Shown piece by piece: positions 48,277 through 64,000 of a DNA stretch of 64,000 nucleotides (positions are counted from its first letter, which is position 1; each line of letters begins with the position of its first letter). A program made the position numbers and the translations under genes. The stretch lies in the NCBI GenBank assembly GCA_040752835.1, contig JBFMGG010000005.1, positions 1 to 64,000 of the forward strand. Reading direction: 5' to 3'. This DNA comes from Campylobacterota bacterium (GTDB taxonomy: Bacteria; Campylobacterota; Campylobacteria; Campylobacterales; Sulfurimonadaceae). The notes beneath the pieces were generated by a model. It was given only the letters and a program-made list of their open reading frames with translations, searched no databases and was not told where the DNA came from.

Positions 48277-49916
48277 ATGAATTGGTTGGAAAACATGGTC
48301 TTGCAGACCAAGCTGATGCTGTTGACCGGGGTGATGATGGTTGCCCTGGCGATTTTGGGTTACGTAGGGTACAACTCGACGCAGAAATGGGAAGAGAGCA
48401 TTACCGAGGTGGGAACCGTCCGTCTCCCCTCCATCGTCGGCTTGCTGGACATGCGGACGGGGATGAATCAGGTCGCGATTCAGCAAAACCGCGTTCGCGC
48501 CCTCAAGGACGACCCGCGTTCCAAAGAGAAGCTCCAGGATGCACTTGAAAAACTGATCAAAGGGTTCGAACGCTACGACCGGGGGTATAAAATCTATGCT
48601 CCCCTGCCCCAAACGCCCGAAGAGGCCGAAGAGTGGAAAAAATTCGAAGAAAATTTCGGCAAATGGAAAGAACTGAGCCTGCAGTTCCGCGCCAACACCC
48701 TCATTCCGCTGATCAACAATACCGACCCGGCGATGGTCGATGTCTATTATGGCCAGATGGCGGCGTTTATCGAAAAAAGTCGTGAACCCAGACAGGCTGC
48801 GTTGGACAACATCGAAAAAATCACGCAGATCAACGTAGAAATCGGCGATGAAACAGTCAAACAAGCCAAAGAAGATTCGGCGGCGGCAGTACAGCTGACG
48901 ATGGTGATCGTACTGGCGGCGTTTGCGGCGGCGATTATCCTGGCTGTCCTTATCATCCGCTCGATCACCCGCTCCATTACCCAAAGCGTCACTTCGATCC
49001 GCGACGGGGCGATGCAGATCACGTCGGCATCCGAGCAGGTCGCTTCGTCGTCTTCGTCGTTGGCCCAGGGAGCGAGCAGGCGAGCAGCGTCGAAGAGGTG
49101 AGCGCGACCCTCGAAGAGTCCACCGCGATCAACGCGCAAAACACCGACAATGCCCGTCAGGCCGACATCCTGGCGAAAAACGCGAACGATTCGGCCCGTG
49201 CCGGGTACGAAAAAGGGGAGCAGCTCTCCTCGTCGATGCACGCGATCACCGAATCGGCGGCAAAAATCTCAGGGATCATCAAAGCGATCGATCAGATCGC
49301 GTTCCAGACCAATCTCCTTGCTCTCAACGCCGCCGTCGAAGCGGCCCGTGCGGGTGAACACGGCCTCGGATTCGCCGTCGTTGCCGATGAGGTGCGCAAC
49401 CTGGCGCAGCGTGCCGCTTCCGCGGCCAAAGAGACCTCCGACATCATCGAAGAGGTAGTCGAGCAGATCAAAGAAGGAAACCAGATCGCCCTGGCGACCC
49501 ACACGGCGTTCCAGGAGATCGTCGAACAGTCCAAAAAAGTCTCCGATCTGATCGGCGAGATCAGCATTGCCGGAAAAGAGCAGTCCGAAGGGATGGCGCA
49601 GATCAACCAGGCGATGGGGCAGGTCGATCAGGTCACCCAGCAGGTGGCGGCAAACTCCGAAGAGGCGGCTGCTGCGGCCGAAGAGCTCAACGCGCAGGCT
49701 GCATCGATGCTCGAGACGGTAGGGATCCTGGCCAAAATGGTCGGCATGCAGACCGACGCCCCGGCGGTTCAGGCGAAGAAAAAAACGCTCCACACGCTGG
49801 AAGTGAAAGCTCCCGCCGCGCCGCGTAAAGTGCAGAGCGCATCTGCGCCGCGCCCGACACCTGCCAAGGCCGATGAGATTTTCCCGCTGAGCGAGGACGA
49901 TCTCAAAGAGTTCTAA
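48277..49916 (+). pseudogene. methyl-accepting chemotaxis protein gene broken by a 4-nt deletion
   Basis: The reading frame from ATG 48277 has TM1 (~12-32), a periplasmic helical domain, TM2 (~207-229) and runs to [10 protein letters not shown], then shifts and stops at 49101. From 49074 another frame gives [16 protein letters not shown] and an intact signalling hairpin ([35 protein letters not shown]) to 49916. The canonical text GAS-EQASS is restored by adding one GAGC unit at 49072-49077. So a tandem GAGC repeat seems to have lost one copy. It could be a real mutation, a phase-variable tract, or a sequencing error. Restored length 547 aa. Confidence 0.85.
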
Positions 49917-49917
49917 G

Positions 49918-50181
49918 ATGCAGTTCGACGGAGACGTGCTGACCATCGGGCTGGAAATGACGATGGAGGAGATACGGGAATTCGAACAGTTTATCCGCCC
50001 GCGCATCGAGTACATCGAGCGCATCGAGGCGGAGGCGGGGAGCGTGCTCAGAAGCAGTGCTCTCCTGGCTCTTTTGGCGAGCCTCAAACGCACGCGCCCC
50101 GATCTGGCGATCCCTTTTTTGGAAAAAGGGTCGGTAGCGGCGCCGGCGCACGGAACCTTGCATTGGATGTGTTATGACTAA
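49918..50181 (+). CDS. small protein (87 aa) of the chemosensory operon, function unknown
   Basis: An 87-residue protein starting MQFDGDVLTIGLEMTMEEIREF. Its start is 1 nt after the MCP stop, and its stop overlaps cheA by 8 nt, so it is embedded in the operon. The DVLTIGLEMTMEE start faintly resembles a STAS-type beta strand-helix, but the protein is too short for a full STAS domain. It may act with CheA or the receptor. Confidence 0.6.
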   Translation: MQFDGDVLTIGLEMTMEEIREFEQFIRPRIEYIERIEAEAGSVLRSSALLALLASLKRTRPDLAIPFLEKGSVAAPAHGTLHWMCYD

Positions 50182-52288
50182 ACAAGAACAAGTCAAAGCG
50201 ATATTTATCGAAGAAGCGGGCGAGATCATCGAAAAACTCGACATCGACATCCTGCGCTTCGAAGAAAATCCCGGCGATTACGATCTGCTGAATGCCATTT
50301 TCCGCGGCGTCCATACCCTCAAGGGGAACGCCAACGCTTTCGGCTTTACGCGGCTGGGAGAATTCGTCCACCATTTCGAGGACGTACTCGACCACTACCG
50401 CAATACCAAAGAATCGATCGAGACCCACCACCTCGAGCTTTTCGTCGGGAGTGTCGACGTGATCAAAGAGGTGATGGAGTGCGAACTCGACGCCCTCCCC
50501 ACCCTTCCTTCCGATTACGACGAATGTCTCGGTAAAATCAAGGAGTTGATCGCCTCGAAAACGCTCAAACCGATGATCCCGTCCCAACCCGAAGAGAGCG
50601 GCGCCCTGAACGACCTGGCGAGCGAATTCGGTTTCGGATGCGACGAGGGGATCGAGGAAGCGGTGCGGCAAAGCATTGAGCGTCATCAGCAGATGCGCGG
50701 CGAGGGTCAGAACCTTCTGCGCGTCGATCTGACCCTTGATGAGGACTGCTACAAACGGGGCTTCGATCATCTGACGTTTTTAAACCTTCTCGCCGAAGGG
50801 TCCGTTTCGCTCGAAAGTTTCGCCGATCTTGAAAACGTCCCCCCTCTGGATGGATTCGCTTCCGACGTCAATGCGATCAAGCGGCTGGGGTGCGTGTTGC
50901 TCACCCCAAAAAGCGTCGCGGAGGTGAGTGAGAATTTCGAGTTTTTGTTCGACCACGAATACCGTGTAACGGCGATCGAGCCTAAAGTCACCGAAGAGCA
51001 GCTCCCCGAACCCGTCGCGGCTGCCTCCGAGGTCTTGGAAACTCCCAAACCCGCTTCCAAACCCGCGGCCGGAGAGAGCGCTTCGGCCTCTTCGGTGCAA
51101 GGTGCGTCCAAGTCGACGATCCGCATCGACACGTTCAAGCTCGACGAGTTGTTCGATTCGGTCGGGGAGCTGGTGATCGCGCAGAATTTCATCGCGCAGA
51201 ACGAAAAAATCCGCGTGATCGAAGACGAATCGATCACCCGCACGATCGAGACCCTCTCGAAGATCACGAAACGGATACAGGACCGGGTGATGAGCCTGCG
51301 GATGGTCGCGATCCGTGATACCTTCGACAAGATGAAACGAGTGGTCCGCGATACCTCCAAAAAAACGGGCAAGGAACTCCACCTGATCGTTCAGGGGGAG
51401 GAGACCGAGATCGACAAGACGATGATCGACAGCCTTTCCGATCCGCTGATCCATATCATCCGAAACGCGATCGACCACGGACTGGAAGCCTCGGCGGCGG
51501 AACGGATTGCGGCGGGCAAAAAAGGGGAAGGGACGATTACCCTCAAAGCCTTCCATAAAAGCGGCAGCATCGTCATCAGCGTCAGCGATGACGGGCGGGG
51601 GATCAACAAGGACAAGGTGTTCCAAAAAGCAATCGACCGGGGGATTATCACGGGAGATGAGAATCTGAGCGAATCGCAGATTTTCGGTCTGATCATGCAG
51701 CCGGGATTTTCGACCGCCGAGACGATCAGCGATCTTTCGGGGCGCGGAGTCGGTCTTGATGTCGTCAAAACCTCGATTGAAAAGCTGCGCGGCAAAATCG
51801 AGATCGATTCGAAAGAGGGGGAAGGGACCACCTTCTCGATGGTCCTTCCCCTCACCCTTGCGATCATCGACGGGATGCTGGTGCGTGCCGCGGGTGAAAT
51901 CTACATCATTCCGACGCTCAGCGTCGTCGAATCGTTCCGCCCGGAGCGGGAGATCGTCCATTCACTCAAAGACAAAGGGGAATTCGTCAGCCTGCGCGGC
52001 CAGCATATCCCGGTCGTCCGCCTCAGTGATGTTTTCAGTCTCCCGACCGAACGGATCGAACCGTGGGAAGGGATTCTGGTCTGCGTCGAAACCGAAGCGG
52101 GACGGATTGCCGTCATGGTCGATGAACTGGTGGGACGCCAGCAGGTCGTCATCAAAACGCTGGGGAAATCGCTCGCACGGCTCAAAGAGATTTCGGGAGG
52201 GGCGATCCTGGGGAACGGCGACATCGCGCTGATCCTCAACGTCGACGAACTGCGTCCCCTGATCGAGGCACCGCATGGTGGAAATTGA
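50174..52288 (+). CDS. cheA: chemotaxis histidine kinase CheA
   Basis: 704 residues. Hpt domain with H47 (GVHTLKGNANAFG), a middle region (~170-310) with a linker, the dimerisation domain (~315-385), HATPase_c (NAIDHGLEAS, DDGRG, GRGVGLDVV) and CheW-like regulatory domain (~570-700). It lacks the C-terminal receiver domain seen in the main CheA of Campylobacter/Helicobacter, so it belongs to a separate pathway that uses the stand-alone CheY at 47391. Confidence 0.94.
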   Translation: MTKQEQVKAIFIEEAGEIIEKLDIDILRFEENPGDYDLLNAIFRGVHTLKGNANAFGFTRLGEFVHHFEDVLDHYRNTKESIETHHLELFVGSVDVIKEVMECELDALPTLPSDYDECLGKIKELIASKTLKPMIPSQPEESGALNDLASEFGFGCDEGIEEAVRQSIERHQQMRGEGQNLLRVDLTLDEDCYKRGFDHLTFLNLLAEGSVSLESFADLENVPPLDGFASDVNAIKRLGCVLLTPKSVAEVSENFEFLFDHEYRVTAIEPKVTEEQLPEPVAAASEVLETPKPASKPAAGESASASSVQGASKSTIRIDTFKLDELFDSVGELVIAQNFIAQNEKIRVIEDESITRTIETLSKITKRIQDRVMSLRMVAIRDTFDKMKRVVRDTSKKTGKELHLIVQGEETEIDKTMIDSLSDPLIHIIRNAIDHGLEASAAERIAAGKKGEGTITLKAFHKSGSIVISVSDDGRGINKDKVFQKAIDRGIITGDENLSESQIFGLIMQPGFSTAETISDLSGRGVGLDVVKTSIEKLRGKIEIDSKEGEGTTFSMVLPLTLAIIDGMLVRAAGEIYIIPTLSVVESFRPEREIVHSLKDKGEFVSLRGQHIPVVRLSDVFSLPTERIEPWEGILVCVETEAGRIAVMVDELVGRQQVVIKTLGKSLARLKEISGGAILGNGDIALILNVDELRPLIEAPHGGN

Positions 52289-53099
52289 GCTCAAGAGCGA
52301 AGAATTCGCCCTTTTTCGACGCTATATCTACGAAAAAGTGGGGATATCCCTCTCGGAGCAGAAAAGTACCCTTGTCAAGGGGCGTCTGAACAAACGGCTC
52401 AACCAGCTTCGGCTGGGGTCGTTCCGGGCCTATTACGATTATCTCGTCGGGGACGAGAGCGGGGAGGAACTCGCGTTTTTCGTCAGCGCCATTTCGACGA
52501 ACGTCACGTCGTTTTTCCGCGAGGGCGCCCAGTGGAAATGGATGGAGACCCATTTGCGCAACCTGGCCCAGGAGAAGCGGGAGAAGAAGATCCGCATCTG
52601 GTCGGCGGGGTGTTCGAGCGGGGAGGAACCCTATACGATTTTGATGTTCCTCCAGCACCACCTGAGCGATTTCGAGGAGTGGGACATCAAGATCCTCGCC
52701 ACCGATATTTCGCCGAAAGTGCTCGCGCACGCGATCGAGGGGGTTTACGACGCCAAATCGGTCGAACCCCTCGCCAAAGAGATCGTCCTCAAATCGTTCG
52801 AGAAGATGCGGACCGAGAGCGGGGTGAAATACCGGATACGGGAGCATTTGCGCGAGAAGGTCGTCTTTCGCCTCTACAATCTCGTCACCGACCCGTTTTT
52901 TTTCAAAAACCGTTTCGACATGATTTTTTGCCGGAACGTCATGATCTATTTCGACGACGTAACCCGTCAGGAGCTGATCGGGAAGTTCGCGACGCTCCTT
53001 CCCAAAGGATCTCCCCTTTTGCTGGGGAGTTCCGAATCGCTGACGACCCACCGCGACACGTTCAAGCTGCTGGGCTCATCGATTTACCAACGATTGTAA
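52275..53099 (+). CDS. cheR: chemotaxis protein methyltransferase CheR
   Basis: 274 residues: N-terminal helical CheR domain and SAM-binding domain with WSAGCSSGEEPYTI and FDMIFCRNVMIYF. It methylates glutamates on receptors. The start overlaps cheA by 14 nt. Confidence 0.93.
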   Translation: MVEIELKSEEFALFRRYIYEKVGISLSEQKSTLVKGRLNKRLNQLRLGSFRAYYDYLVGDESGEELAFFVSAISTNVTSFFREGAQWKWMETHLRNLAQEKREKKIRIWSAGCSSGEEPYTILMFLQHHLSDFEEWDIKILATDISPKVLAHAIEGVYDAKSVEPLAKEIVLKSFEKMRTESGVKYRIREHLREKVVFRLYNLVTDPFFFKNRFDMIFCRNVMIYFDDVTRQELIGKFATLLPKGSPLLLGSSESLTTHRDTFKLLGSSIYQRL

Positions 53100-53109
53100 A
53101 AGGAATGGT

Positions 53110-54507
53110 GTGAAAACCGATCTCTCCGCGCAGGAAGCGAAATTCGACAACGACGAGCTGTTTTTTTCGATCACGCAACTTGACAGTACGATCCTCTCGG
53201 GCAACGACGTTTTCGTCCGCATCAGCGGCTACGACGAAACGGAGCTGGTCGGGAGCATTCACAACATTATCCGCCATCCCGATATGCCGAGGGTCATTTT
53301 CAAAACCCTGTGGGACGCTATCGGTTCGGGCAAACCGCTCGTCGCGTACGTCAAAAACCGGACCAAAACGGGAGAATATTACTGGGTTCTCGCCGCCGTT
53401 TTCCCGCTGGGCGAACGCTACCTCTCGATCCGGATCAAACCCACAACGGCGCTGTTCGCGCGTGCACGGGAGATCTATTTCAAACTCCTGATGGCCGAGA
53501 GCAGGGGTGGGATGGAAGAGAGCGGGGCGCTGCTGGGGCGGCTGCTGGGCGAACTGGGGTATGAGCGCTACGAGCAGTTCATGAGCGAAGCGCTGCTGCA
53601 GGAGCTGCACGCCCGCAAAGCCAGCCTGGGGAATGGCTGCCTCGCCGAAAAACGGTTCGAGTCTTCGTCGCAGTCGCTTCTGGGGCTGAAGATGCTCTAC
53701 GATACGTGCCAGAGCGTCATGCGCGAATACGAGGAGTGGTATGCCAAGATCGGCCTGTTCGAAGAGGTCCGTTCGGGCTTTAAGGAAAAAGGGGACCTCC
53801 TGCGCCGTCTGGCGCGGGACGTGGTCTTTTTGTCGCTGAACGCATCGGTCTCTTCGCACCGTTCTTGCGGGGGCGGGGAGACCTTCGGCGTTCTGGCCCG
53901 CGATATCCGGATCAACGCCAAGGAAAACGATGAGCTCATCGGAGGGGTACGCGTACTGATCGACGACCTCTCGGTGGGGTTGAACGAGCTGATTTTCACC
54001 GTCTCGGCGATTTCGCTGCAGATCGAAACCATCTTGTATTTCATCGAAGAGGTACTGTGCAAAGAACGTGAAGAGAAAATGGATCAGGTTCGGGAAAATG
54101 TGTCCGACCTGATCGCGCTTGTCTGTGAATACGCTGCACGGTGCCAGAACATTCAAAACGGGCTGCTTGCCGGGATGACGACGGTGCTTAAACATCTTGA
54201 GCGGTTGGAACGGCAGATGCTCTACCTGGGGTACATCCAGGTTTACGGGATCATCGAAGCGGCGGGAGAGAGCGACGAAGCGACACGCTTTAACGTCATT
54301 TTCTCCGAGCTGAAGGTGCTGTTGCAAAAAACGTCGGGGGAGATCGAAGCGATGCAGATCATGGGAGAGCGTTTCGCCAATGAAAACCGTTTTCTGATCG
54401 ACAAATCGGCGGCGATGGAGGGGACCCTCGCGCGGCTGAAACACGAAAGCGGCCCCGGGCCGATCCGGAAGAAAGGGGAATACAATGCAAAACGTCGCGA
54501 TGTTTAG
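53110..54507 (+). CDS. PAS-domain protein with degenerate chemoreceptor signalling hairpin
   Basis: 465 residues from GTG 53110 (AGGAA upstream). Residues ~15-112 form an Aer-type PAS domain (SGNDVFVRISGYDETELVG, NIIRHPDMP). The rest is long helices, with DVVFLSLNASVSSHRSCGGG and TFGVLARDIRINAKEN (~237-275), recognisably derived from the MCP tip [16 protein letters not shown] ... FAVVADEVR but with the key residues changed. It may compete with or modify receptor arrays rather than activate CheA. No membrane helix. Confidence 0.72.
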   Translation: MKTDLSAQEAKFDNDELFFSITQLDSTILSGNDVFVRISGYDETELVGSIHNIIRHPDMPRVIFKTLWDAIGSGKPLVAYVKNRTKTGEYYWVLAAVFPLGERYLSIRIKPTTALFARAREIYFKLLMAESRGGMEESGALLGRLLGELGYERYEQFMSEALLQELHARKASLGNGCLAEKRFESSSQSLLGLKMLYDTCQSVMREYEEWYAKIGLFEEVRSGFKEKGDLLRRLARDVVFLSLNASVSSHRSCGGGETFGVLARDIRINAKENDELIGGVRVLIDDLSVGLNELIFTVSAISLQIETILYFIEEVLCKEREEKMDQVRENVSDLIALVCEYAARCQNIQNGLLAGMTTVLKHLERLERQMLYLGYIQVYGIIEAAGESDEATRFNVIFSELKVLLQKTSGEIEAMQIMGERFANENRFLIDKSAAMEGTLARLKHESGPGPIRKKGEYNAKRRDV

Positions 54508-55324
54508 CGAGGTTAAGTGTGAGGATGGATGCGACGAGGTCGCGTTCCTGAGCCGAAAAATACTCGATCTGAACAAGAAACTCATCGAAAGCGAAAAAGC
54601 CAAATCGCGGTTTTTGTCGCTGGTGGCGAACGCCTTGAACAACCCGATGACGGCGCTGCTGGGGATGATCCCCCATCTTGCGCCGCAGGAGGGGGGAGAG
54701 CGGCGTCAGGTTTACGACCTGATCGAGGAAGAGGCGCTGATCCTCGATTTCCGGATACAAAACCTCGTTGCCGCCGCCGAGATCGAAAGCGGGATCAACG
54801 ACATAAGCCATTCGCTCGTCGACGTCGCTTCGCTGGTGCGCGAGGCGATCGAGTCGCTCAAATACCCGATCCGGGCCAAAAACATGGACGTACGGATCGA
54901 CGACAACCTGGGCCGAGCCATTGTTTCAGACCCCCGTAAACTCTACCTGATCCTCAAAAACCTTCTTGCCAACGCGTGCTGCTACGGGGAAGCCGGAACG
55001 CCGATTGACGTGACCTTCTCCGCGCGGGGCGAACGGGTCGAGGTGACCGTCACCAACCGGGGCGAGGGTCCCGACGTCGAGTACAAGCCCCAGGTATTTA
55101 CCCGTTTCGCGCAAGGCCCCGGCGGCGCGCACGGTCTGGGGATCGGGCTGAGCATCGTCCGCGATTACAGCGAACGGATGGGGGGAAGTACCGACTATTC
55201 GGTTCAGGAAGGCGCGGTGACGTTTCGGGTCGATCTGCCGCTTCAGACGACGCTTCCCGATTCGGAAGCGTGCGGTTCGAACGAGTTTTTCTTCGAATCG
55301 TTCGACGATGCCATCGAAATCTAA
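54485..55324 (+). CDS. histidine-kinase-like protein lacking the phospho-acceptor His
   Basis: 279 residues. A helix like HisKA with FLSLVANALNNPMTALLG: Asn49 stands where the His of FLSxVSHELRTP should be. HATPase_c is intact in outline (NLLANACCYG, GLGIGLSIVRDY), so it may still bind ATP. It could be a scaffold, a phosphatase or an ATP-sensing regulator for the 53110 protein, which it overlaps by 23 nt. The acidic, Phe-rich tail (SNEFFFESFDDAIEI) might be a docking peptide. Confidence 0.75.
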   Translation: MQNVAMFSEVKCEDGCDEVAFLSRKILDLNKKLIESEKAKSRFLSLVANALNNPMTALLGMIPHLAPQEGGERRQVYDLIEEEALILDFRIQNLVAAAEIESGINDISHSLVDVASLVREAIESLKYPIRAKNMDVRIDDNLGRAIVSDPRKLYLILKNLLANACCYGEAGTPIDVTFSARGERVEVTVTNRGEGPDVEYKPQVFTRFAQGPGGAHGLGIGLSIVRDYSERMGGSTDYSVQEGAVTFRVDLPLQTTLPDSEACGSNEFFFESFDDAIEI

Positions 55325-55807
55325 ATGATTCAGGGCGTCTCCACGTTCATCCACGTCGGGCAGATCCATGTGGACAGTGCCCCTTCGGCCATTTCGACCG
55401 TTTTGGGGTCATGCGTCTCGGTGTGTTTGTACGATCCGCATCTCCGGATCGGCGGGATGAACCATTATCTCCTGCCGTTCTGGAACGCGAATGGCTTGCA
55501 AACCCCCAAATTCGGCAATATCGCGATCCCCAAGCTGATTGAGGCGATGATGAGCCGCGGGGCGAAGCCCAAAACGATGGAAGCGAAAATCTTCGGCGGG
55601 GCTTCGATGAACATCGGCGGCTCCGAAGCGATGCTGATCGGCCAGAAAAACATCCTCGTGGCCAGAGAGATTCTCAAAGAGTATCGGATCGGGATCATTG
55701 CCGAAGACGTCGGGGGAGAAAACGGGAGAAAAATCCAGTTCGATCTCGAGCGGGGGAAAGTATTGCTCAAATACGCCAGCCGCAGCGAATTGACGTGTAA
55801 AGGATAG
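55325..55807 (+). CDS. cheD: chemoreceptor glutamine deamidase CheD
   Basis: 160 residues with the catalytic Cys in TVLGSCVSVCLYD, His in GGMNHYLLP, and the IFGGASM motif. CheD deamidates receptor Gln residues and in some species regulates CheC/CheB. It starts immediately after the stop of the upstream gene. With cheB and cheR it completes an adaptation set not present in the core Campylobacter system. Confidence 0.92.
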   Translation: MIQGVSTFIHVGQIHVDSAPSAISTVLGSCVSVCLYDPHLRIGGMNHYLLPFWNANGLQTPKFGNIAIPKLIEAMMSRGAKPKTMEAKIFGGASMNIGGSEAMLIGQKNILVAREILKEYRIGIIAEDVGGENGRKIQFDLERGKVLLKYASRSELTCKG

Positions 55808-55809
55808 AG

Positions 55810-56832
55810 ATGGCGATACGGGTATTGATTGTGGACGACAGCGCGACGGCGCGGGCGGTTCTGCGCGACATCCTCGAAAACGACCCCGAAATCGAAGTGG
55901 TCGGGAGCGCGTCGGATGCATACGTCGCCCGCGACAAGATCGTCGAACTCCGTCCGGACGTTATCTGTCTGGATGTCGAGATGCCCCGGATGGATGGGAT
56001 CACGTTTCTGCGCCGGTTGATGCATTATGTTCCGATTCCGGTAGTTATGGTCTCATCCTTGACCCAAAACGGGGCAAAAACGACCCTCGAGGCGCTCGAA
56101 GCGGGAGCTGTCGATTTCGTCCCCAAACCCCATTCGCACATTTACGACGGTAAAGACGAGATGCGCGACGAGCTGCTTTCGAAGATCAAAACGGCTTCCC
56201 GTGTACGGGTTCGTCAGCGCGCTCTTCAGGATATCCGTCAGGCGAATACGACGTCGCTGGCCGAAACGACCCACAAAATTCTCGCCATCGGAGCCTCGAC
56301 GGGGGGGACCGAAGCGCTCAAAGAGGTGCTGATGGGACTGCCGCGAAACGCCCCTGGGACGGTGATCGTTCAACACATGCCGGCCAATTTTACCGCGCCG
56401 TTTGCCGAGCGGCTCAACGCATTGTGCGCGATGGAGGTGCGCGAAGCGCGCAACGGCGATTCGATTACGCCGGGAGTCGTTCTGATCGCGCCGGGAGATT
56501 ATCACATGGTCGTACGCCGTTCGGGGGCACGATACTACGTTGAGATCGGCAGCGGGGACAAGGTCTCGGGGCACCGTCCCTCGGCGGACGTACTGCTCAA
56601 TTCGGTGGCCAAGATCGCGGGGGCCAACGCGATCGGCGTGATCCTTACCGGGATGGGGGGCGACGGTGCGCGCGGGCTTCTCGCGATGCGCAACGCGGGG
56701 GCGAGGACGATCGGCCAGGACGAAGCGAGCTGCATCGTCTACGGGATGCCCAAGGTCGCGTACGAGCTTGGGGCGGTCGAGCGGCAGCTGCCATTGTCCA
56801 AAATTGCCGAAGGAATTGTGCAATCGCTCTGA
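55810..56832 (+). CDS. cheB: protein-glutamate methylesterase CheB
   Basis: 340 residues: receiver domain with D55 (CLDVEMPRMDG) and methylesterase with Ser (IGASTGGTEAL), His (IVQHMPANF) and Asp (GMGGDGARGL). It removes methyl groups (and can deamidate) from receptors when phosphorylated by CheA. Campylobacter jejuni CheB lacks the receiver, so this is the regular, phospho-controlled type. AGGA precedes ATG. Confidence 0.94.
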   Translation: MAIRVLIVDDSATARAVLRDILENDPEIEVVGSASDAYVARDKIVELRPDVICLDVEMPRMDGITFLRRLMHYVPIPVVMVSSLTQNGAKTTLEALEAGAVDFVPKPHSHIYDGKDEMRDELLSKIKTASRVRVRQRALQDIRQANTTSLAETTHKILAIGASTGGTEALKEVLMGLPRNAPGTVIVQHMPANFTAPFAERLNALCAMEVREARNGDSITPGVVLIAPGDYHMVVRRSGARYYVEIGSGDKVSGHRPSADVLLNSVAKIAGANAIGVILTGMGGDGARGLLAMRNAGARTIGQDEASCIVYGMPKVAYELGAVERQLPLSKIAEGIVQSL

Positions 56833-56903: not shown

Positions 56904-58019
56904 ATGCTCACGATCAACGAAACGGTTATCCCCGAAGGGGACGAGGATCTCGGCGATAACCTGCTGTATTACGATTACAATATCGACCACATCCTCTCGC
57001 TCGAAGCCAAGGGGCTGACGATGGAAGACGAGGGGTACGTCAGCGCGTACCGCTCGTTCGAGGGGGAAGTGTACGAAAACTACATCTACGAAAAACTTCT
57101 GCGCTTTGCGGCCAACGAGCCGAAAATTAAAAGTTTCATCATCAAAGGCCCCCACAAGCACCGTACCCGCGCCCGCAGCGACGCCCTCTCGGTGAGCTGG
57201 AAAGGGCAGATCATCTACCGTGCCCGTCACAAGGAGATCGGGGAGTTCGACGGGCTTTTGTTTACCGACCGGGAACTCTATTTCGTCGAGATGACACTGG
57301 TCAAGTCGGTGAGCAACCTCAAAAAGCGGCTCCGCAAAAAACGGGCGTTGCTGGAAGTGTTGTTTCCCCGCTACAAAGTCAAGGCGCTGCTGGTTCTCAA
57401 CGAAGGGGCGACGGGGACTTCCGAACTTCCCGATTACGCATCGGTCTGGATCACCAAACCCTACAGCGCGCGTCATATCCTCGACCGTCTCTCCACCCGC
57501 GCGCCGCGCGCGCCGATGCGTCGGGTCGAGAGCGCCAAAATCGCCCATGCCGAGGAGATCAAAACCGCCTCGTTCAAATACTATGCGACGCTCACGTGGA
57601 TGCTGCGCTCGCTGCGGGGCAAAGATCCCATCGACCTGGAGTTTTTCCGCCGCAGTTCGACCCAGCGCTATCACGACATCTACACGAAAGTCTACGTCGG
57701 GTATCTGCCGATCGCCGAGTTCAAGCGTCTCGCCCCGGATGCGGTGAATGCCGAGAGCAAGGCCGAGCGGGCCGTCGTCGCGATCGAAAAAGACCACAGC
57801 GGCGGCTATTTTCTGACCTATTTTGTCCGCCATTCGGCGAAGAAACTCGACAATGTCACCCTCGGCGGCGGCGCGTGCAAGATCGTCAAAAAAGACCCTT
57901 TCGGGATCACCCTGACCGAGATGAACCATCTCGACCGCGTCATGGGGGAGGAATTCGCCCTCACCGCCGAACAGCATCGCCGCCTCGAAGCGCTTATTCC
58001 GACCATCCGTCACAAATAG
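56904..58019 (+). CDS. hypothetical protein, possible PD-(D/E)XK-like fold
   Basis: 371 residues, cytosolic, from ATG 56904 (AAAGAG upstream); the 12-residue N-terminal extension is unlikely. Segment GEFDGLLFTDRELYFVEMT resembles the E/D...E-x-K core of PD-(D/E)XK nuclease-type domains such as DUF1887, but Thr stands in place of the usual Lys. A Lys/Arg-rich helix (SNLKKRLRKKRALLE) follows. Function is unknown. The gene stands outside the chemosensory operon by spacing and probably has its own promoter. Confidence 0.55.
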   Translation: MLTINETVIPEGDEDLGDNLLYYDYNIDHILSLEAKGLTMEDEGYVSAYRSFEGEVYENYIYEKLLRFAANEPKIKSFIIKGPHKHRTRARSDALSVSWKGQIIYRARHKEIGEFDGLLFTDRELYFVEMTLVKSVSNLKKRLRKKRALLEVLFPRYKVKALLVLNEGATGTSELPDYASVWITKPYSARHILDRLSTRAPRAPMRRVESAKIAHAEEIKTASFKYYATLTWMLRSLRGKDPIDLEFFRRSSTQRYHDIYTKVYVGYLPIAEFKRLAPDAVNAESKAERAVVAIEKDHSGGYFLTYFVRHSAKKLDNVTLGGGACKIVKKDPFGITLTEMNHLDRVMGEEFALTAEQHRRLEALIPTIRHK

Positions 58020-58086
58020 GGCGTTAATCGTTAATTATCCTTTTTTGCCTTATACTTGCGGGATCACAAAAGTATAAGGGTTTATT

Positions 58087-58545
58087 ATGAAAAGAGTTAT
58101 CATTACCTGCCTTGCAGCCCTGAGCCTCTGGGGTGCTCCCTACAAAGTCGGACAGTCGGTCATGCCGCTGGACCTGAGCGACCAGTTCGGCAAGAAACAC
58201 TCCCTCAAAGCGATGCCCAAAACCCTCATTATGGCGTTTGAAAAAGGGACCGGGGCCACGGTCAACGAGTATCTTGCGGAGCAGGAAAAGGGGTATCTGG
58301 CGAAAAACAGAGCCGCTTTCGTTGCCGATATCAGCCAGATGCCTCCGTTTATCACCGAAACTTTCGCCCTTCCCAAAATGCGCAAATATCCCCACACCGT
58401 CCTGCTGATCCGTGACGAGGAGCAGGGACTGCGCTTTCCGGGAGAAGACGGGAAAATCACGATCATGAAATTTCGCGGCAACTTTCTGACGAAGATTGAT
58501 TTCGTCGAGAGCGCCGCCGAACTCAAAAAAGCGATCGAGCAGTGA
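58087..58545 (+). CDS. exported thioredoxin-fold-like protein without active-site cysteines
   Basis: 152 residues with a signal peptide (ITCLAALSLWGAP). The layout VGQSVMPLDLSDQFGKKHSL ... KTLIMAFEKGTG ... YPHTVLLIRDEEQGLRFPG resembles a thioredoxin/AhpC fold, but the mature protein has no cysteine, so no redox role is expected. Its stop overlaps the GTG start of the permease, making it the first gene of a six-gene coupled operon. Confidence 0.65.
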   Translation: MKRVIITCLAALSLWGAPYKVGQSVMPLDLSDQFGKKHSLKAMPKTLIMAFEKGTGATVNEYLAEQEKGYLAKNRAAFVADISQMPPFITETFALPKMRKYPHTVLLIRDEEQGLRFPGEDGKITIMKFRGNFLTKIDFVESAAELKKAIEQ

Positions 58546-59621
58546 TCACGCCGATCAAGGCGCTGCGCAAGAACCGTTTCAAGACGGCTCTCATTTTCGT
58601 GAGCATGACCGTCTCGATCGCCGCGATTTTTCTCATCAGCGCGATCTCGGGCGGGGTGGTAAGCATGTACAGCGCGATGCTCAAAACCGACGGGGACGTC
58701 ATCGTGACCCAAAAAGGGATCGCCGATACCTTTTTCAGCGACATCAACCGCTCGATGCTCCCGACGATCGCGGCGATGGAAGGGGTCCGGGAAGCAAGCG
58801 CGATGATCCTCGGCGCCGCCCCGGTCGATCCGCTCCCCATCGTCGGAATCTACGGGGTCAGCGACAACCGGTTCAAAAGCTACGTCCTCAAGCGGGGGAA
58901 CTATCCCAAAGCGGGGGAAGTGATGCTGGGATCGAAAATCTATGAAACCCTCAAACACCCCCGCACGATCACCCTCTCCAAGCAGGAATTCAAGGTGAGC
59001 GGCGTTTTTAAAAGCCGGATCGGCTTCGAAGACGGCGGGGTTGTGATGAACCTCGAAGAAGGGGGCAAAATCTTTCACAAAAGCGCCTCGATTTTCCTGA
59101 TCAGCCTGGACGATCTGGGGAAAAGCGACGCCCTCACCGCCCGTATCAACGCTCTGAACCCGCAGATCGAGGCAAAAACGACGGAGAGTTTCATCGATTC
59201 GTACAACCAGTTCAAAATCATCCAGACCAGTTCGGACGTGATCGGGGCGATGGCATTTTTGATGGGGATTTTGGGGATCGTGAGCATGATGAGCATGGTC
59301 GTCAACGACCGCAAGGCGGAATTCGGGATTATGCGGTCGGTCGGGCTGTCGTCGCTGAACATCATCCTCAAACTTCTGGGGGAGACGCTGATCGTCGCCC
59401 TGATCGCGTTTGCTGCGGCATGGGGGATTTCCGAAGGGGTGCTGGAGCTGATCGAGCATGCCGAAAAATTCCAGGGCTACATCAACGGCGAGATCACCGG
59501 GGCGCTGTTGCTCAAAGTGTTCGCCGTCTCGGTCGCGATGGCGCTGGTGGGGACGCTGCTGCCGGCGGTCTATGCGTCGCGCATCGACCCGATGAGCCTG
59601 ATACAGCGGGGGGGAGCATGA
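58542..59621 (+). CDS. FtsX/MacB-type ABC transporter permease
   Basis: 359 residues from GTG 58542. One N-terminal helix (~20-42), a large periplasmic domain (~45-220), then three C-terminal helices (~235-265, 280-305, 320-350): the FtsX/LolC/MacB topology. These move lipoproteins, peptides or lipids outward or signal to cell-wall enzymes rather than import solutes. It overlaps the thioredoxin-fold-like gene and the ATPase gene by 4 nt each. Confidence 0.85.
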   Translation: MITPIKALRKNRFKTALIFVSMTVSIAAIFLISAISGGVVSMYSAMLKTDGDVIVTQKGIADTFFSDINRSMLPTIAAMEGVREASAMILGAAPVDPLPIVGIYGVSDNRFKSYVLKRGNYPKAGEVMLGSKIYETLKHPRTITLSKQEFKVSGVFKSRIGFEDGGVVMNLEEGGKIFHKSASIFLISLDDLGKSDALTARINALNPQIEAKTTESFIDSYNQFKIIQTSSDVIGAMAFLMGILGIVSMMSMVVNDRKAEFGIMRSVGLSSLNIILKLLGETLIVALIAFAAAWGISEGVLELIEHAEKFQGYINGEITGALLLKVFAVSVAMALVGTLLPAVYASRIDPMSLIQRGGA

Positions 59622-60247
59622 GAATCGACGCACGGAATCTCGAACATTACTACGGGAGCGAATACGTTCTGCGCGGCGTCGATCTCTCGATCAAACCCGG
59701 GGGATTTACCGCGATCATCGGCGAGAGCGGGAGCGGAAAAACGACCCTGCTCTCGATCCTCTCGACGCTGCTGCGCCCCACTTCGGGGAGCGTTACCTAC
59801 GAAGGGAAAACCCTCGATGAGGTGGGGGACATCGACGTCTTCCGCCGCCGAAACGTCGGTTTCGTATTCCAGTTTCACTATCTGATCTCCTATCTGACGC
59901 TGCGCGAAAACGTCGCCCTCTCCGCGCTGGATGAGGCCCTGATCGATCCGTTGATGGAACGGCTGGGCATTTTGCGCCTTCGCGGACGCTACAGCGACGA
60001 AGTTTCCGGCGGGGAACGCCAGCGCGCGGCGATCGCCCGGGCGCTGATCAACCGTCCCTCCGTCGTTTTCGCCGACGAGCCGACGGGAAACCTCGATACG
60101 AAAAATGCGTTGGGCGTCTACGAACTCTTTCGCGAATTTTCGGGGAGCGGGACCGGTTTTATCGTCGCCTCGCACGACAAGAAGATCGCCGATTTCGCCG
60201 ATACGATCATTGAAATGGAGGACGGGATTGTTACGAAAATTTCTTGA
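59618..60247 (+). CDS. ABC transporter ATP-binding protein (LolD/MacB type)
   Basis: 209 residues. Walker A GESGSGKTT, Q-loop VFQFHYL, signature VSGGERQRA, Walker B VVFADEPTGNLD, and switch His in VASHDKK. The GNLDT form is typical of the LolD/MacB/FtsE group that pairs with FtsX-like permeases. ATG 59618 overlaps the permease stop (ATGA). Confidence 0.92.
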   Translation: MRIDARNLEHYYGSEYVLRGVDLSIKPGGFTAIIGESGSGKTTLLSILSTLLRPTSGSVTYEGKTLDEVGDIDVFRRRNVGFVFQFHYLISYLTLRENVALSALDEALIDPLMERLGILRLRGRYSDEVSGGERQRAAIARALINRPSVVFADEPTGNLDTKNALGVYELFREFSGSGTGFIVASHDKKIADFADTIIEMEDGIVTKIS

Positions 60248-61772
60248 CGCGCAGCTCCCTCTTTTGCTGCTGTGGCTGATCCTCGGGCTCTTCGCGGGGC
60301 TCGTGTACGCGCTGGAGATGGTCGGGCTCGAAGCCACGGGGACGCTGCTCTCTCCCGAACGGGCGCGCTCGTTGCACATTTCGCAGATGCTGTACGGATT
60401 TTTTCCCCTGCTCCTTTCGCTGCTGCCGTTTGCATTGTTTGAAAAAGAGGGGGTTCTCAGCGAAACGGCCCTGGCTCACCTGGCGCGCTATTTCGTCGTC
60501 TGGAACCTGTTTTTGCTCTTTATGAGCATGGCGATCTTGTTCGGCAACATTCGGGGACTGCCGTTTTACGATTTCCCTTACGAACTCAACTTTCTGCTGG
60601 CGTTCAGCGGGCTTTTTTACCTTCTGGCACTTCTGGACGCCCTGCGCCGTTACGAAAAGCGGCCCGTTTGGGTCAACGTTTCGCTCTTTGCCGTGATCGC
60701 CGCGCCCATAGCCCTCGTCGTTTTGATGAACCCCCAGTACGGGCAGGTCGAAAAGAGCCTCATCGGCCCTCACGGGGACAATACGCTGGGGATGAGTTTT
60801 ACCTTGATTCCGATCTATTACCTTCTGATCAAGCTGGTTGCGCCGAACGAATTCCGTCCCCGCGGACACTGGTTGTGGATCGTTCCGCTGGCGGGGTATC
60901 TCGTGTCGCTGGTAATCCGGAATTTTTTCCACCCCCTGAGTTACAACGAAGAGTGGTTTTTCCAGTACCTGACCCTGCTCTATCTGCCGCTGTTGTGGAT
61001 TTGGCTGAGGGATGCGGGGGTGACATTCGCCCTCAACCCCTATCTGATCCTCTCGATCGCCGCGTTCGTCTTCGTGGACGTGCAGGGGAACATTCTCTTC
61101 ATCCCCGAACTGCGGGAACTGATCCACCGCAACGACCTGGTTGTGGGGCATGCCCACATCGCGATGGGGCTTGGGGTGGCGTTTATGGCGCTCACCATTG
61201 CCCATCATCTCATGGGGCGTCTGTTCCGACGGATCCACGCACTGGTCTGGACCCTCCTGATGGCGGTAATGGCGGGGGTACTCACCGTTGCCGGAGTGAT
61301 CGAAGCGGGGCTTGTCGAAGGGGCCGTCGAGCCGATGCTCACGCTACGGGCGATCGCGGGAGCGGCATTGCTGGCGATGGTGATCGCGTTGGCGTACGAA
61401 CGGCTGGCGCTGCGTTTGAACACGCCGCTGCGGATCTATCACGCCCTCGGCGTCGCCGGCGACGCGGGAGGGGGGATTGTGTTGCTGATCGGCGGCGGGG
61501 TCCTTTTCGAACTGCTGGGATTCCGTTTTACGGGGACGTTCGAATACATCGTGTTCGCCTTTATGATCGGCACCGGGCTGGCCCACTGGGCGGGTTTGAT
61601 GGGCGACGAAGAGCGCTTCGCCGATCTCACCGCGCAGGTAAGGGCGGTGTGCGCGTCGGTATTCGCCGCGCTGTACATGGCTGGGACGCTTGACGCTCTC
61701 GCCCTTTTGGTCGCGGTCTACGACGGAGCGTTTGCTTTGCTGTACTGGCTTGTCTTGCGGAGCCGCACATGA
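60228..61772 (+). CDS. divergent heme-copper oxidase / NO-reductase-like subunit I
   Basis: 514 residues with ~13 hydrophobic helices, from TTG 60228 (GGAGG 6 nt upstream, overlapping the ATPase gene by 20 nt). His residues sit as in C-family (cbb3/NOR) subunits: H50 (RARSLHISQM, low-spin heme), H182 (GPHGDNTLGMSFTLIPIYY, CuB-like), H235 (NFFHPLSYN; the canonical HH is reduced to one His), and H308/H310 (VVGHAHIAMG, heme pair). The metal site may be incomplete. No partner heme-c subunit is beside it. Confidence 0.65.
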   Translation: MLRKFLDAQLPLLLLWLILGLFAGLVYALEMVGLEATGTLLSPERARSLHISQMLYGFFPLLLSLLPFALFEKEGVLSETALAHLARYFVVWNLFLLFMSMAILFGNIRGLPFYDFPYELNFLLAFSGLFYLLALLDALRRYEKRPVWVNVSLFAVIAAPIALVVLMNPQYGQVEKSLIGPHGDNTLGMSFTLIPIYYLLIKLVAPNEFRPRGHWLWIVPLAGYLVSLVIRNFFHPLSYNEEWFFQYLTLLYLPLLWIWLRDAGVTFALNPYLILSIAAFVFVDVQGNILFIPELRELIHRNDLVVGHAHIAMGLGVAFMALTIAHHLMGRLFRRIHALVWTLLMAVMAGVLTVAGVIEAGLVEGAVEPMLTLRAIAGAALLAMVIALAYERLALRLNTPLRIYHALGVAGDAGGGIVLLIGGGVLFELLGFRFTGTFEYIVFAFMIGTGLAHWAGLMGDEERFADLTAQVRAVCASVFAALYMAGTLDALALLVAVYDGAFALLYWLVLRSRT

Positions 61773-62725
61773 ATTTCCTCGTCATTGTCCTGAGTTCCCA
61801 GCTGCTGTATTATCTTCTGATCGCCCAGACGGGGGTGGTCGGGGCGTTCGATTCGCATATCCACGACCTTTTCACCCTCCCCATCGGCGGAATCGTCGGA
61901 GCTTTGCTCAGTGCCTACTGGCGCCATCACGAGGTTCGGCAGGAACTCTATTTTCTCTTCGGTGCCCAGATCATCATTTCGTGGTTCTACCCCAACTATT
62001 CGCTGGGGATGTTGCTGGCGCTCGGATTCGTAGTCGGGTATACGACGCCGCTGATGCTCTATCTCTTCGGCAACCAAAGCCGCCTGCATCTGGCCGTCGG
62101 GCTGGCGATTTCGTATGCGGCGGGGACGGCGTTTTACACCTATCCCTTCGGTGAACGCGACGTCATTGCCGTGGTGTTGCCGGCGATTTCCGTCGCAGCG
62201 CTTTTTTTCGCCCGAACCGGGGCGATTCACCGCCCCAAGTCGCACGCCTTCGACTGGCCCGGAGTCGGGGTGATGATGTTGTGGATCTTTGCCGATTCGG
62301 CATTGTTTGAAACCCTCAGCCGCTCGGGGGATATGGACATCTGGAGCGAATACACGCTGCTCATCGTCACGTCCCATCTGCTGGGGGTTTATCTGGCCTA
62401 CCGCTACGGGCAGGAACTGATGTCGCAGACCCGCACGGTCTGGCTGCTGTTCGCGCTGAGCTACCTGCTTTACTGGATCCGGCAGCCGATCGTACTGGCG
62501 ATTGTTTATCCGGTCGTCATTTCGTACTATAATGTTCTTTTGTTTCAAAAACTGGTTGCGATGCGGGACGTTCGGCTGATCGCCCTCTCGATGGTGGGTG
62601 TGGGCTGGATCGCCGCTTCGGCGGCAAACGGCGTGGCTTTGGCCCAGCAGCTCTGGATCGCCGCGGTTGTGTTGGGGCTTTTCGCCCTCGTTTATCCATT
62701 TATTTTCAGGAGGTATGCATTATGA
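61769..62725 (+). CDS. polytopic membrane protein, function unknown
   Basis: 318 residues with nine or ten predicted helices and few charged residues. No recognised family motif; a His/Asp stretch GAFDSHIHDLF lies between helices 1 and 2. It overlaps the heme-copper-like gene and the YceI gene by 4 nt each, so it may be a partner subunit or a transporter in the same module. Confidence 0.65.
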   Translation: MNFLVIVLSSQLLYYLLIAQTGVVGAFDSHIHDLFTLPIGGIVGALLSAYWRHHEVRQELYFLFGAQIIISWFYPNYSLGMLLALGFVVGYTTPLMLYLFGNQSRLHLAVGLAISYAAGTAFYTYPFGERDVIAVVLPAISVAALFFARTGAIHRPKSHAFDWPGVGVMMLWIFADSALFETLSRSGDMDIWSEYTLLIVTSHLLGVYLAYRYGQELMSQTRTVWLLFALSYLLYWIRQPIVLAIVYPVVISYYNVLLFQKLVAMRDVRLIALSMVGVGWIAASAANGVALAQQLWIAAVVLGLFALVYPFIFRRYAL

Positions 62726-63249
62726 AAAAACTGTTGTTTGGGACGCTCGTACTGGCCGCATCGCTCTACGCCGGGAATCTCGGGTTCGAATCGGGGGTGA
62801 TCAAAGCCCATACGGAAGTTTTCGGGGACAGCTCGATCGACCCGATGTTCAAAAAAGCCCATTCGAAACTTTCGATGGACGCTGACCCTTCGACTTTGCG
62901 CGGCACGATCGAAGTGAGCATCGGCGATTTTATCAGCGACAACAAAAAACGCGACGCCAACATGTACGAAGCGATGGAATCGGACAAATTCCCCAAAGCC
63001 TCGTTTGAGATCAAAGAGGTTGTCGCCAAGGGAGGAGACAACTACCTTCTTAAAGGGACGATGAATCTGCACGGCGTCGCGAAAGCGATGAATTTCGAGG
63101 GAACCGTCGCCGAGGAAGCGGGCAAGGTGCGTATCAAGGCCAAAAGCGCGATGAAAATGTCCGATTTCGGCATTCAGCCGCCGAAAATGGTGTTTCTCGT
63201 CGTTCGCGATCAGGTCGATTTGAACGTCGACGTCGTCTTGAAACGGTAA
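62722..63249 (+). CDS. exported YceI-family protein
   Basis: 175 residues with signal peptide (LLFGTLVLAASLYAG). The YceI lipocalin-like pattern is present: GTIEVSIGDFISDNKKRDANM, FPKASFEIKEV, KGTMNLHGVAKAMNF. YceI proteins bind isoprenoid chains (polyprenyl or quinone-like) in a beta-barrel. It is the last gene of the coupled operon and overlaps the convergent metallo-hydrolase by 40 nt. An isoprenoid ligand might be the substrate of the ABC system (inference). Confidence 0.85.
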   Translation: MKKLLFGTLVLAASLYAGNLGFESGVIKAHTEVFGDSSIDPMFKKAHSKLSMDADPSTLRGTIEVSIGDFISDNKKRDANMYEAMESDKFPKASFEIKEVVAKGGDNYLLKGTMNLHGVAKAMNFEGTVAEEAGKVRIKAKSAMKMSDFGIQPPKMVFLVVRDQVDLNVDVVLKR

Positions 63250-64000
63250 ATCTCCCCGATTGCGAGGACTCGCGCCGCGTCGGCCGCCCCTTCGCGTTCG
63301 ATCAACTCTTTGAACCACGCCGCGGGTTCGTCCAGCGGTTCATCCGAGAGACGGAACGTCCCGTAATGGATCGGGATGAGCGTCGCGGCCCCCAGATCGC
63401 GAAACGCCCGGATCGCTTCGGGGGGGTTGAGATGGTTGGGCCGCATGATCGCTTCGGGGCGATAAGCCCCGATCGGCAGAAACGCTTCGTCGATCGCAAA
63501 CCGTTCCGAAATCTCGCCGAAATGTTCCCCATACCCCGTGTCTCCGGCATGGTAGAGGGTGTGCTCGGCATTTTGGATCACGTATCCTCCCCACAGTGCC
63601 TTGTTGGTGTCAAAAGGGGTCCGTTTGCTCCAGTGCAGGGCGGGGACAAGGGTGATGAAAAGTCCCCCGACCATCAGCGATTCCCACCATTCCAGCTCAA
63701 AACACCGTTCCCTCGTCATCTCGTTTTTCAAATAACGCCAGAACCCCTGGGGGGCGACGACGATGGTTTCGGGATTGCGCCGCAGCAGCTCGATGACCGA
63801 ACGTTTGTCGAAATGGTCGTAGTGGGCGTGGGTGATGAGGACCAGGTCGGCGGCGAGACGCTCACGCGGCACCGGAAGGGGTGTGTGGCGCCCATACATC
63901 GGGATCCCGCCAAAAACCGGATCGATCGCGACGGTCGTGCCGCCGATATTCAGCCATAACGTGGCATGCCCCATCCACATCGCGTATTCGCCCTGCGGAA
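63210..64000 (-). CDS. UlaG/NAPE-PLD-like metallo-beta-lactamase-fold hydrolase, 5' end beyond window
   Basis: At least 263 residues; the frame is still open at the right edge. The zinc-site motif THAHYDHFDKRSV, the MGHATLWLN start of the fold, HAGDTGYG and the HLNPPEA ... PIHYGTF segments fit the UlaG/NAPE-PLD branch. A Met at 63980 could start it, but the family needs sequence before MGHAT, so the true start probably lies outside. It converges on YceI with a 40-nt overlap. Confidence 0.8.
   Translation of the reverse strand, partial: PQGEYAMWMGHATLWLNIGGTTVAIDPVFGGIPMYGRHTPLPVPRERLAADLVLITHAHYDHFDKRSVIELLRRNPETIVVAPQGFWRYLKNEMTRERCFELEWWESLMVGGLFITLVPALHWSKRTPFDTNKALWGGYVIQNAEHTLYHAGDTGYGEHFGEISERFAIDEAFLPIGAYRPEAIMRPNHLNPPEAIRAFRDLGAATLIPIHYGTFRLSDEPLDEPAAWFKELIEREGAADAARVLAIGEIYRFKTTSTFKST

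Follow-up and report, generated by a model that had tools for sequence, protein, structure and literature searches.

A six-gene operon at positions 58087-63249 of a Campylobacterota bacterium contig (GCA_040752835.1, contig JBFMGG010000005.1, positions 1-64,000 of the forward strand; this 64,000-nucleotide stretch is the window referred to below) joins an FtsX-type ATP-binding cassette (ABC) pair and a YceI protein to a homologue of heme-copper oxidase (HCO) subunit I whose CuB site is missing throughout its family. The gene set is conserved over 80 loci in many environmental Campylobacterota. The components have known folds; what appears to be new is the way they are combined and the lineage of CuB-less HCO homologues. 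As the initial annotation supposed, no described system with the six genes was found in the literature (open-access papers only). We assign a probability of roughly 35% to the reading that a CuB-less, quinol-linked cytochrome b, a lipid-extracting ABC transporter and a YceI carrier move or re-reduce a periplasmic isoprenoid or lipid during oxidative or metal stress of the envelope.

Conservation of the six-gene operon

The six open reading frames, here called g1 to g6, are in frame and codirectional on the plus strand, with ATG, GTG, ATG, TTG, ATG and ATG as start codons. Every junction overlaps, as the initial annotation had it: by 20 nucleotides between the ATPase and the oxidase-like gene and by 4 at the others (4, 4, 20, 4 and 4 along g1 to g6). 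The source genome is Sulfuricurvum-like, its nearest named matches being Sulfuricurvum metagenome-assembled genomes. When this genome and 40 relatives were searched, full-length g4 homologues were found in 24 of the 41; their neighbouring genes were the same, and so were most of the overlaps. Named genomes scanned with strict family peptides, reported here for loci within Campylobacterota, yielded 80 loci at 41-84% identity, which belong to Sulfuricurvum, Sulfurimonas, Sulfurovum, Sulfurospirillum and the Arcobacter group. Around g4 in these loci, g5 was present in 78, g2 and g6 in 75 each, g3 in 74 and g1 in 59. Adjacent codirectional pairs were the rule (g2-g3 in 71/72, g3-g4 in 74/74, g4-g5 in 70/77 and g5-g6 in 74/74). 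Because the overlaps recur in relatives and the gene order persists across the 80 loci even where identity falls to about 41%, the grouping goes beyond chance; the six families thus form the coupled module that had been proposed, and the loss of gene order that was to count against it was not seen. Some Sulfurovum-type loci carry the rearranged order g5-g6-g2-g3-g4-g1, so the stable blocks are g2-g3-g4 and g5-g6.

Of 200 complete Campylobacteria genomes, sampled evenly, exactly the same 12 contain g4 and g5, a complete coupling, though kinship makes the genomes non-independent. Eight further weak g4 matches in this sample were CcoN-like fragments. A plasmid search left g4 unmatched, and the sole plasmid relative of g2 belongs to an ABC pair of a Massilia putida plasmid (L111), where the FtsX-ATPase pair adjoins an ArsR/SmtB regulator and a DsbD N-terminal-domain protein. 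A few loci depart from the standard gene content. The YceI gene is tandemly duplicated in one relative (L045, 12495-13669), the g5 gene is in two pieces in L094 and G089, and the FtsX gene is split in L051; these last may be broken copies or assembly errors.

The ABC pair was assigned as expected. The permease g2 (58542-59621) contains FtsX (PF02687, 1.3e-16) and MacB_PCD (PF12704, 1.2e-11) domains and the ATPase g3 (59618-60247) an ABC_tran domain (PF00005, 2.4e-33), all above the Pfam cut-offs. Profile matches of g2 were MacB, LolF and LolE, and g3 is of the LolD type (TIGR02211, 4.6e-54, below the equivalog cut-off). With an FtsX domain, a periplasmic core domain and an ABC ATPase, the pair belongs to the type VII ABC systems (MacB/LolCDE). 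It falls short of a LolCDE equivalog, both in score (183 against 308 bits for LolD, 51 against 362 for LolCE) and in the absence of LolA from the module. Like LolCDE and MacB, it combines an FtsX-type permease bearing a periplasmic domain with a LolD-like ATPase; unlike them, the module has a single permease gene and none for LolA, MacA or TolC.

The operon ends, as annotated, with a YceI gene (g6, 62722-63249). Its product is a divergent member of this isoprenoid-binding, lipocalin-like family (PF04264, 2.7e-19, 70.5 bits against a cut-off of 23.7) with a signal peptide by reading, and its profile matches E. coli YceI (1y0g, 1.2e-12). A second, canonical YceI is encoded elsewhere in the source genome. 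The 318-residue product of g5 (61769-62725) had been described as an unknown polytopic protein. It is indeed a membrane protein, and its fold can now be predicted: the AlphaFold2 model (mean predicted local distance difference test score, pLDDT, 94.3) is matched over the whole chain by structures of the major facilitator superfamily (MFS), with Z up to 25.7. By sequence, no usable Pfam or PDB match and no MFS profile match was obtained. The reading of the first gene had to be corrected. The 152-residue product of g1 (58087-58545) is secreted, and its sole cysteine (C8) lies within the signal peptide, leaving the mature part without cysteine or a CXXC motif. It had no Pfam or PDB match, and its thioredoxin-like appearance was noted by eye, with no support from profiles. 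The g1 family also occurs alone elsewhere, and its paralogues sit in unrelated contexts.

A heme-copper oxidase homologue that has lost CuB

The assignment of g4 (60228-61772; 514 residues) as a divergent relative of HCO subunit I held in both profile searches and predicted fold, and no unrelated membrane family emerged in its place. Pfam COX1 scored 21.7 bits against g4 itself, below the cut-off of 34.8, and matched 35 of 42 diverse family members at E<=0.01 (best 1e-9); CcoN models matched nine members. Plain phmmer of g4 against PDB gave no match, and profiles were needed: the family profile found cbb3 subunit I (6xkw, 2e-4), and a profile-profile comparison with Campylobacterota CcoN aligned 370 columns (E 1.8e-6, probability 89.8). 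The AlphaFold2 model (pLDDT 87.7) has the 12-helix HCO fold and matched cbb3 in Foldseek (E 1.7e-6). By structural comparison (VIA), the cytochrome c-type nitric oxide reductase (cNOR) was the top match with Z 27.0, with cbb3 at 26.1, over about 375 residues. The HCO core spans approximately residues 1-399 and is followed by four extra helices (400-510). This C-terminal region (61425-61769, residues 400-514) carries invariant D412, H453, R472 and D499 and may hold a further cofactor or substrate site.

The alignment with CcoN places H50 and H310 at the positions of the bis-His ligands of the low-spin heme (CcoN H64 and H363) and H308 at that of the proximal His of the active-site heme (H361). 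Two further conserved columns pair H300 with H353 and D303 with D356. Within 78 family sequences, H50, H182, D184, H300, H308, H310 and H453 are invariant, and the H300/D303 pair is invariant or nearly so. The CuB histidines of CcoN (223, 273 and 274), in contrast, fall on D184, H235 and P236. The first of these is an invariant Asp, the last is unconserved, and H235 varies (H in 26, G in 34, E in 9, D in 3); the three His of a CuB or FeB site were found nowhere among the 78. The initial annotation had proposed an incomplete CuB site, with HH reduced to FH at 234-235. The FH is present, but since H235 is unconserved, CuB is absent from the whole family and not merely reduced. With the heme ligands constant and the CuB positions not, the active-site copper is gone family-wide and the heme sites appear intact. 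Judged by its sequence, g4 is an HCO homologue and not a functional heme-copper oxidase. It shares with CcoN and NorB the core fold, the three heme-ligand positions and the H300/D303 positions; it differs in lacking the CuB ligands, in its four added helices and in being encoded in an ABC operon with no CcoO/CcoP or NorC partner gene. No cytochrome c or CuA partner gene was present among the recurrent neighbour families of the 80 loci, an analysis covering linked genes.

Candidate functions of the module

Our preferred reading takes the six products as one envelope machine. With CuB lost and the heme ligands kept, the CcoN-like core of g4, predicted to bind a bis-His low-spin heme and to retain the proximal His of a second, would work as a membrane-bound cytochrome b relaying electrons from the menaquinol pool, and would reduce neither O2 nor NO. 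An isoprenoid or lipid would be drawn out of the inner membrane by the ABC pair at the expense of ATP, with g6 as its periplasmic carrier, and g5 may ferry a lipid or cofactor from one side of the membrane to the other. The module could thereby supply or re-reduce a periplasmic isoprenoid or quinone, or repair oxidised envelope lipids. We also consider it possible, if doubtful, that the operon encodes a new class of machine, in which the cytochrome is physically part of the FtsX/LolD-type exporter and couples the redox state of quinol to the extraction of isoprenoid or lipid and its delivery on YceI.

Several neighbouring genes bear on this proposal. A hydrolase of the metallo-beta-lactamase fold, resembling NAPE-PLD, lies on the minus strand (63210-64000, continuing beyond the window to about 64124), its 3' end overlapping g6 by 40 nucleotides. 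A homologue in L032 matches human NAPE-PLD (4qn9) at E 4e-37, and a full gene is present in L115. In 20 loci the gene stands next to YceI on the opposite strand; in another six it runs in the direction of the module, within or beside it. Downstream of the module, Arcobacter- and Sulfurospirillum-type loci encode a phosphoesterase closest to LpxG/YaeI (below curated cut-offs) and a two-component pair whose best matches, also below cut-offs, are CopR/CusR/HprR for the regulator and CopS/CusS for the kinase. TTCAT-n5/6-TTCAT direct repeats occur upstream of 30 of 71 modules and 11 of 397 control genes (p 6e-19, uncorrected for relatedness). Among the modules that have them are Sulfuricurvum loci with no linked two-component genes. 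Envelope oxidant or copper stress may induce the module through the CopRS/HprRS-like system linked to it in the Arcobacter and Sulfurospirillum groups. The lipid theme (YceI, the LolD/MacB-like ABC pair and two lipid-type hydrolases), the heme ligands without CuB and the CopRS/HprRS-like control fit a redox-linked envelope lipid or quinone module, and the best fit among the roles first suggested is quinone or lipid redox handling.

By analogy, the nearest functional precedent would be BcnA-LcoA, in which lipid peroxidation is kept in check by the YceI lipocalin BcnA and the cytochrome b561 LcoA, the latter being proposed to re-reduce the YceI-bound quinone (PMC9113575). The module likewise encodes a periplasmic YceI with a predicted b-type cytochrome membrane protein, for which we propose a similar quinone redox logic; it differs in that its cytochrome is HCO-derived, with no linked b561, and in the addition of the ABC exporter, the MFS protein and g1. 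E. coli MsrPQ may serve as a second precedent, a periplasmic repair system in which MsrP needs its membrane partner MsrQ and hiuH-msrPQ is induced via HprSR/CusSR (PMC9302797). There too a membrane protein supports a periplasmic partner, and some module relatives have CopR/HprR-like regulation, whereas the module proteins are unrelated and include no MsrP.

A number of observations weigh against this reading. Resemblance of an ABC pair to LolD and MacB is not enough to establish a lipid as its substrate, and the patchy spread (12 of 200 genomes) speaks against a universal housekeeping repair role. For g4, heme binding is predicted from ligand residues; no quinone site was identified in it, and the operon has no cytochrome c partner. 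Neither g1 nor g5 has a specific role in the explanation, and the operon in the window has no TTCAT repeats in its promoter region and no linked two-component genes.

Among the alternatives, an unlikely one that nevertheless survives best is a module for metal acquisition or metal redox chemistry, in which an ABC permease pair works with a redox protein of the membrane and with proteins of the periplasm in handling Cu or Fe. In C. jejuni, the FetABCDEF system serves iron uptake with ABC permeases and an ATPase, thioredoxins and the redox-type membrane protein FetA (PMC10783030), and the two-component system linked to some modules resembles the copper-type CopRS/CusRS. Of the ABC-plus-redox clusters in the phylum, FetABCDEF comes nearest; there, too, ABC permease and ATPase genes stand beside genes for periplasmic proteins and a redox-type membrane protein. 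The module differs in every specific marker tested: it has no FetM, FetP or FetA, no FTR1/P19-like or metal-binding protein, one permease and not two, and no CXXC thioredoxins, g1 included, and has YceI and an HCO homologue instead. Metal handling would also leave YceI and the lipid-enzyme neighbours unexplained.

Improbable, too, is that g4 has no functional heme pair and was co-opted by the exporter as a structural partner in the membrane or as a subunit that channels the substrate. It has lost CuB and carries four extra helices, and since g2-g3-g4 is the least breakable block, g4 may belong to the exporter; against this, the near-complete invariance of all three heme-ligand positions and of H300/D303 would be unexpected had heme been lost.

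We regard it as quite improbable that g4 senses or reduces small molecules (NO, O2, H2S or polysulfide) at an open heme site, with a link to export. The conserved proximal His (H308) and the cNOR match agree with it, yet nitric oxide reductase chemistry uses a second metal site, and g4 lacks the His set for one. The link to NO suggested by the initial annotation, and one to denitrification, proved weak. NnrS is present in 10 of 12 module-positive and 61 of 188 module-negative genomes (p 0.0007), an association that may mirror a free-living lifestyle; NosZ shows none (2/12 against 47/188, p 0.73), and the source genome has neither gene.

A cbb3 assembly factor for heme or copper insertion is very improbable and was rejected as the main role: CcoN is the nearest sequence relative of g4, and the known cbb3 copper importer CcoA is likewise an MFS protein, but several Campylobacteria have CcoN and no module (for example G018, G021, G024, G034 and G037), and g5 has neither the MxxxM nor the HxxxM motif of CcoA.

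With this operon the HCO superfamily would gain a conserved lineage that keeps its heme-ligand residues, has lost the copper site on which oxygen chemistry depends and is set in an operon of the lipid-exporter type. The module would also offer a direct test of how YceI proteins use their bound isoprenoid and of how Campylobacterota maintain their envelope at redox interfaces.

Promoter region and upstream genes

A putative sigma-70 -10 element of the operon promoter, TATACT, lies at 58051-58056 on the plus strand. In most Sulfuricurvum loci, TATACTT or TACACTT was seen by eye at a similar spot 5' of the operon. A perfect 9-bp inverted repeat (cttatactt/aagtataag, 12-bp spacer) at 58049-58078 overlaps this element and is only partly kept in relatives. 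Directly 5' of the operon, a gene at 56910-58019 encodes a protein that is conserved in about 21 Sulfuricurvum-type loci and had no Pfam or NCBIfam match. It is preceded at 48277-56832 by a chemotaxis-type cluster encoding, by reading of the translations, a methyl-accepting chemotaxis protein, CheA, CheR, CheD and CheB.

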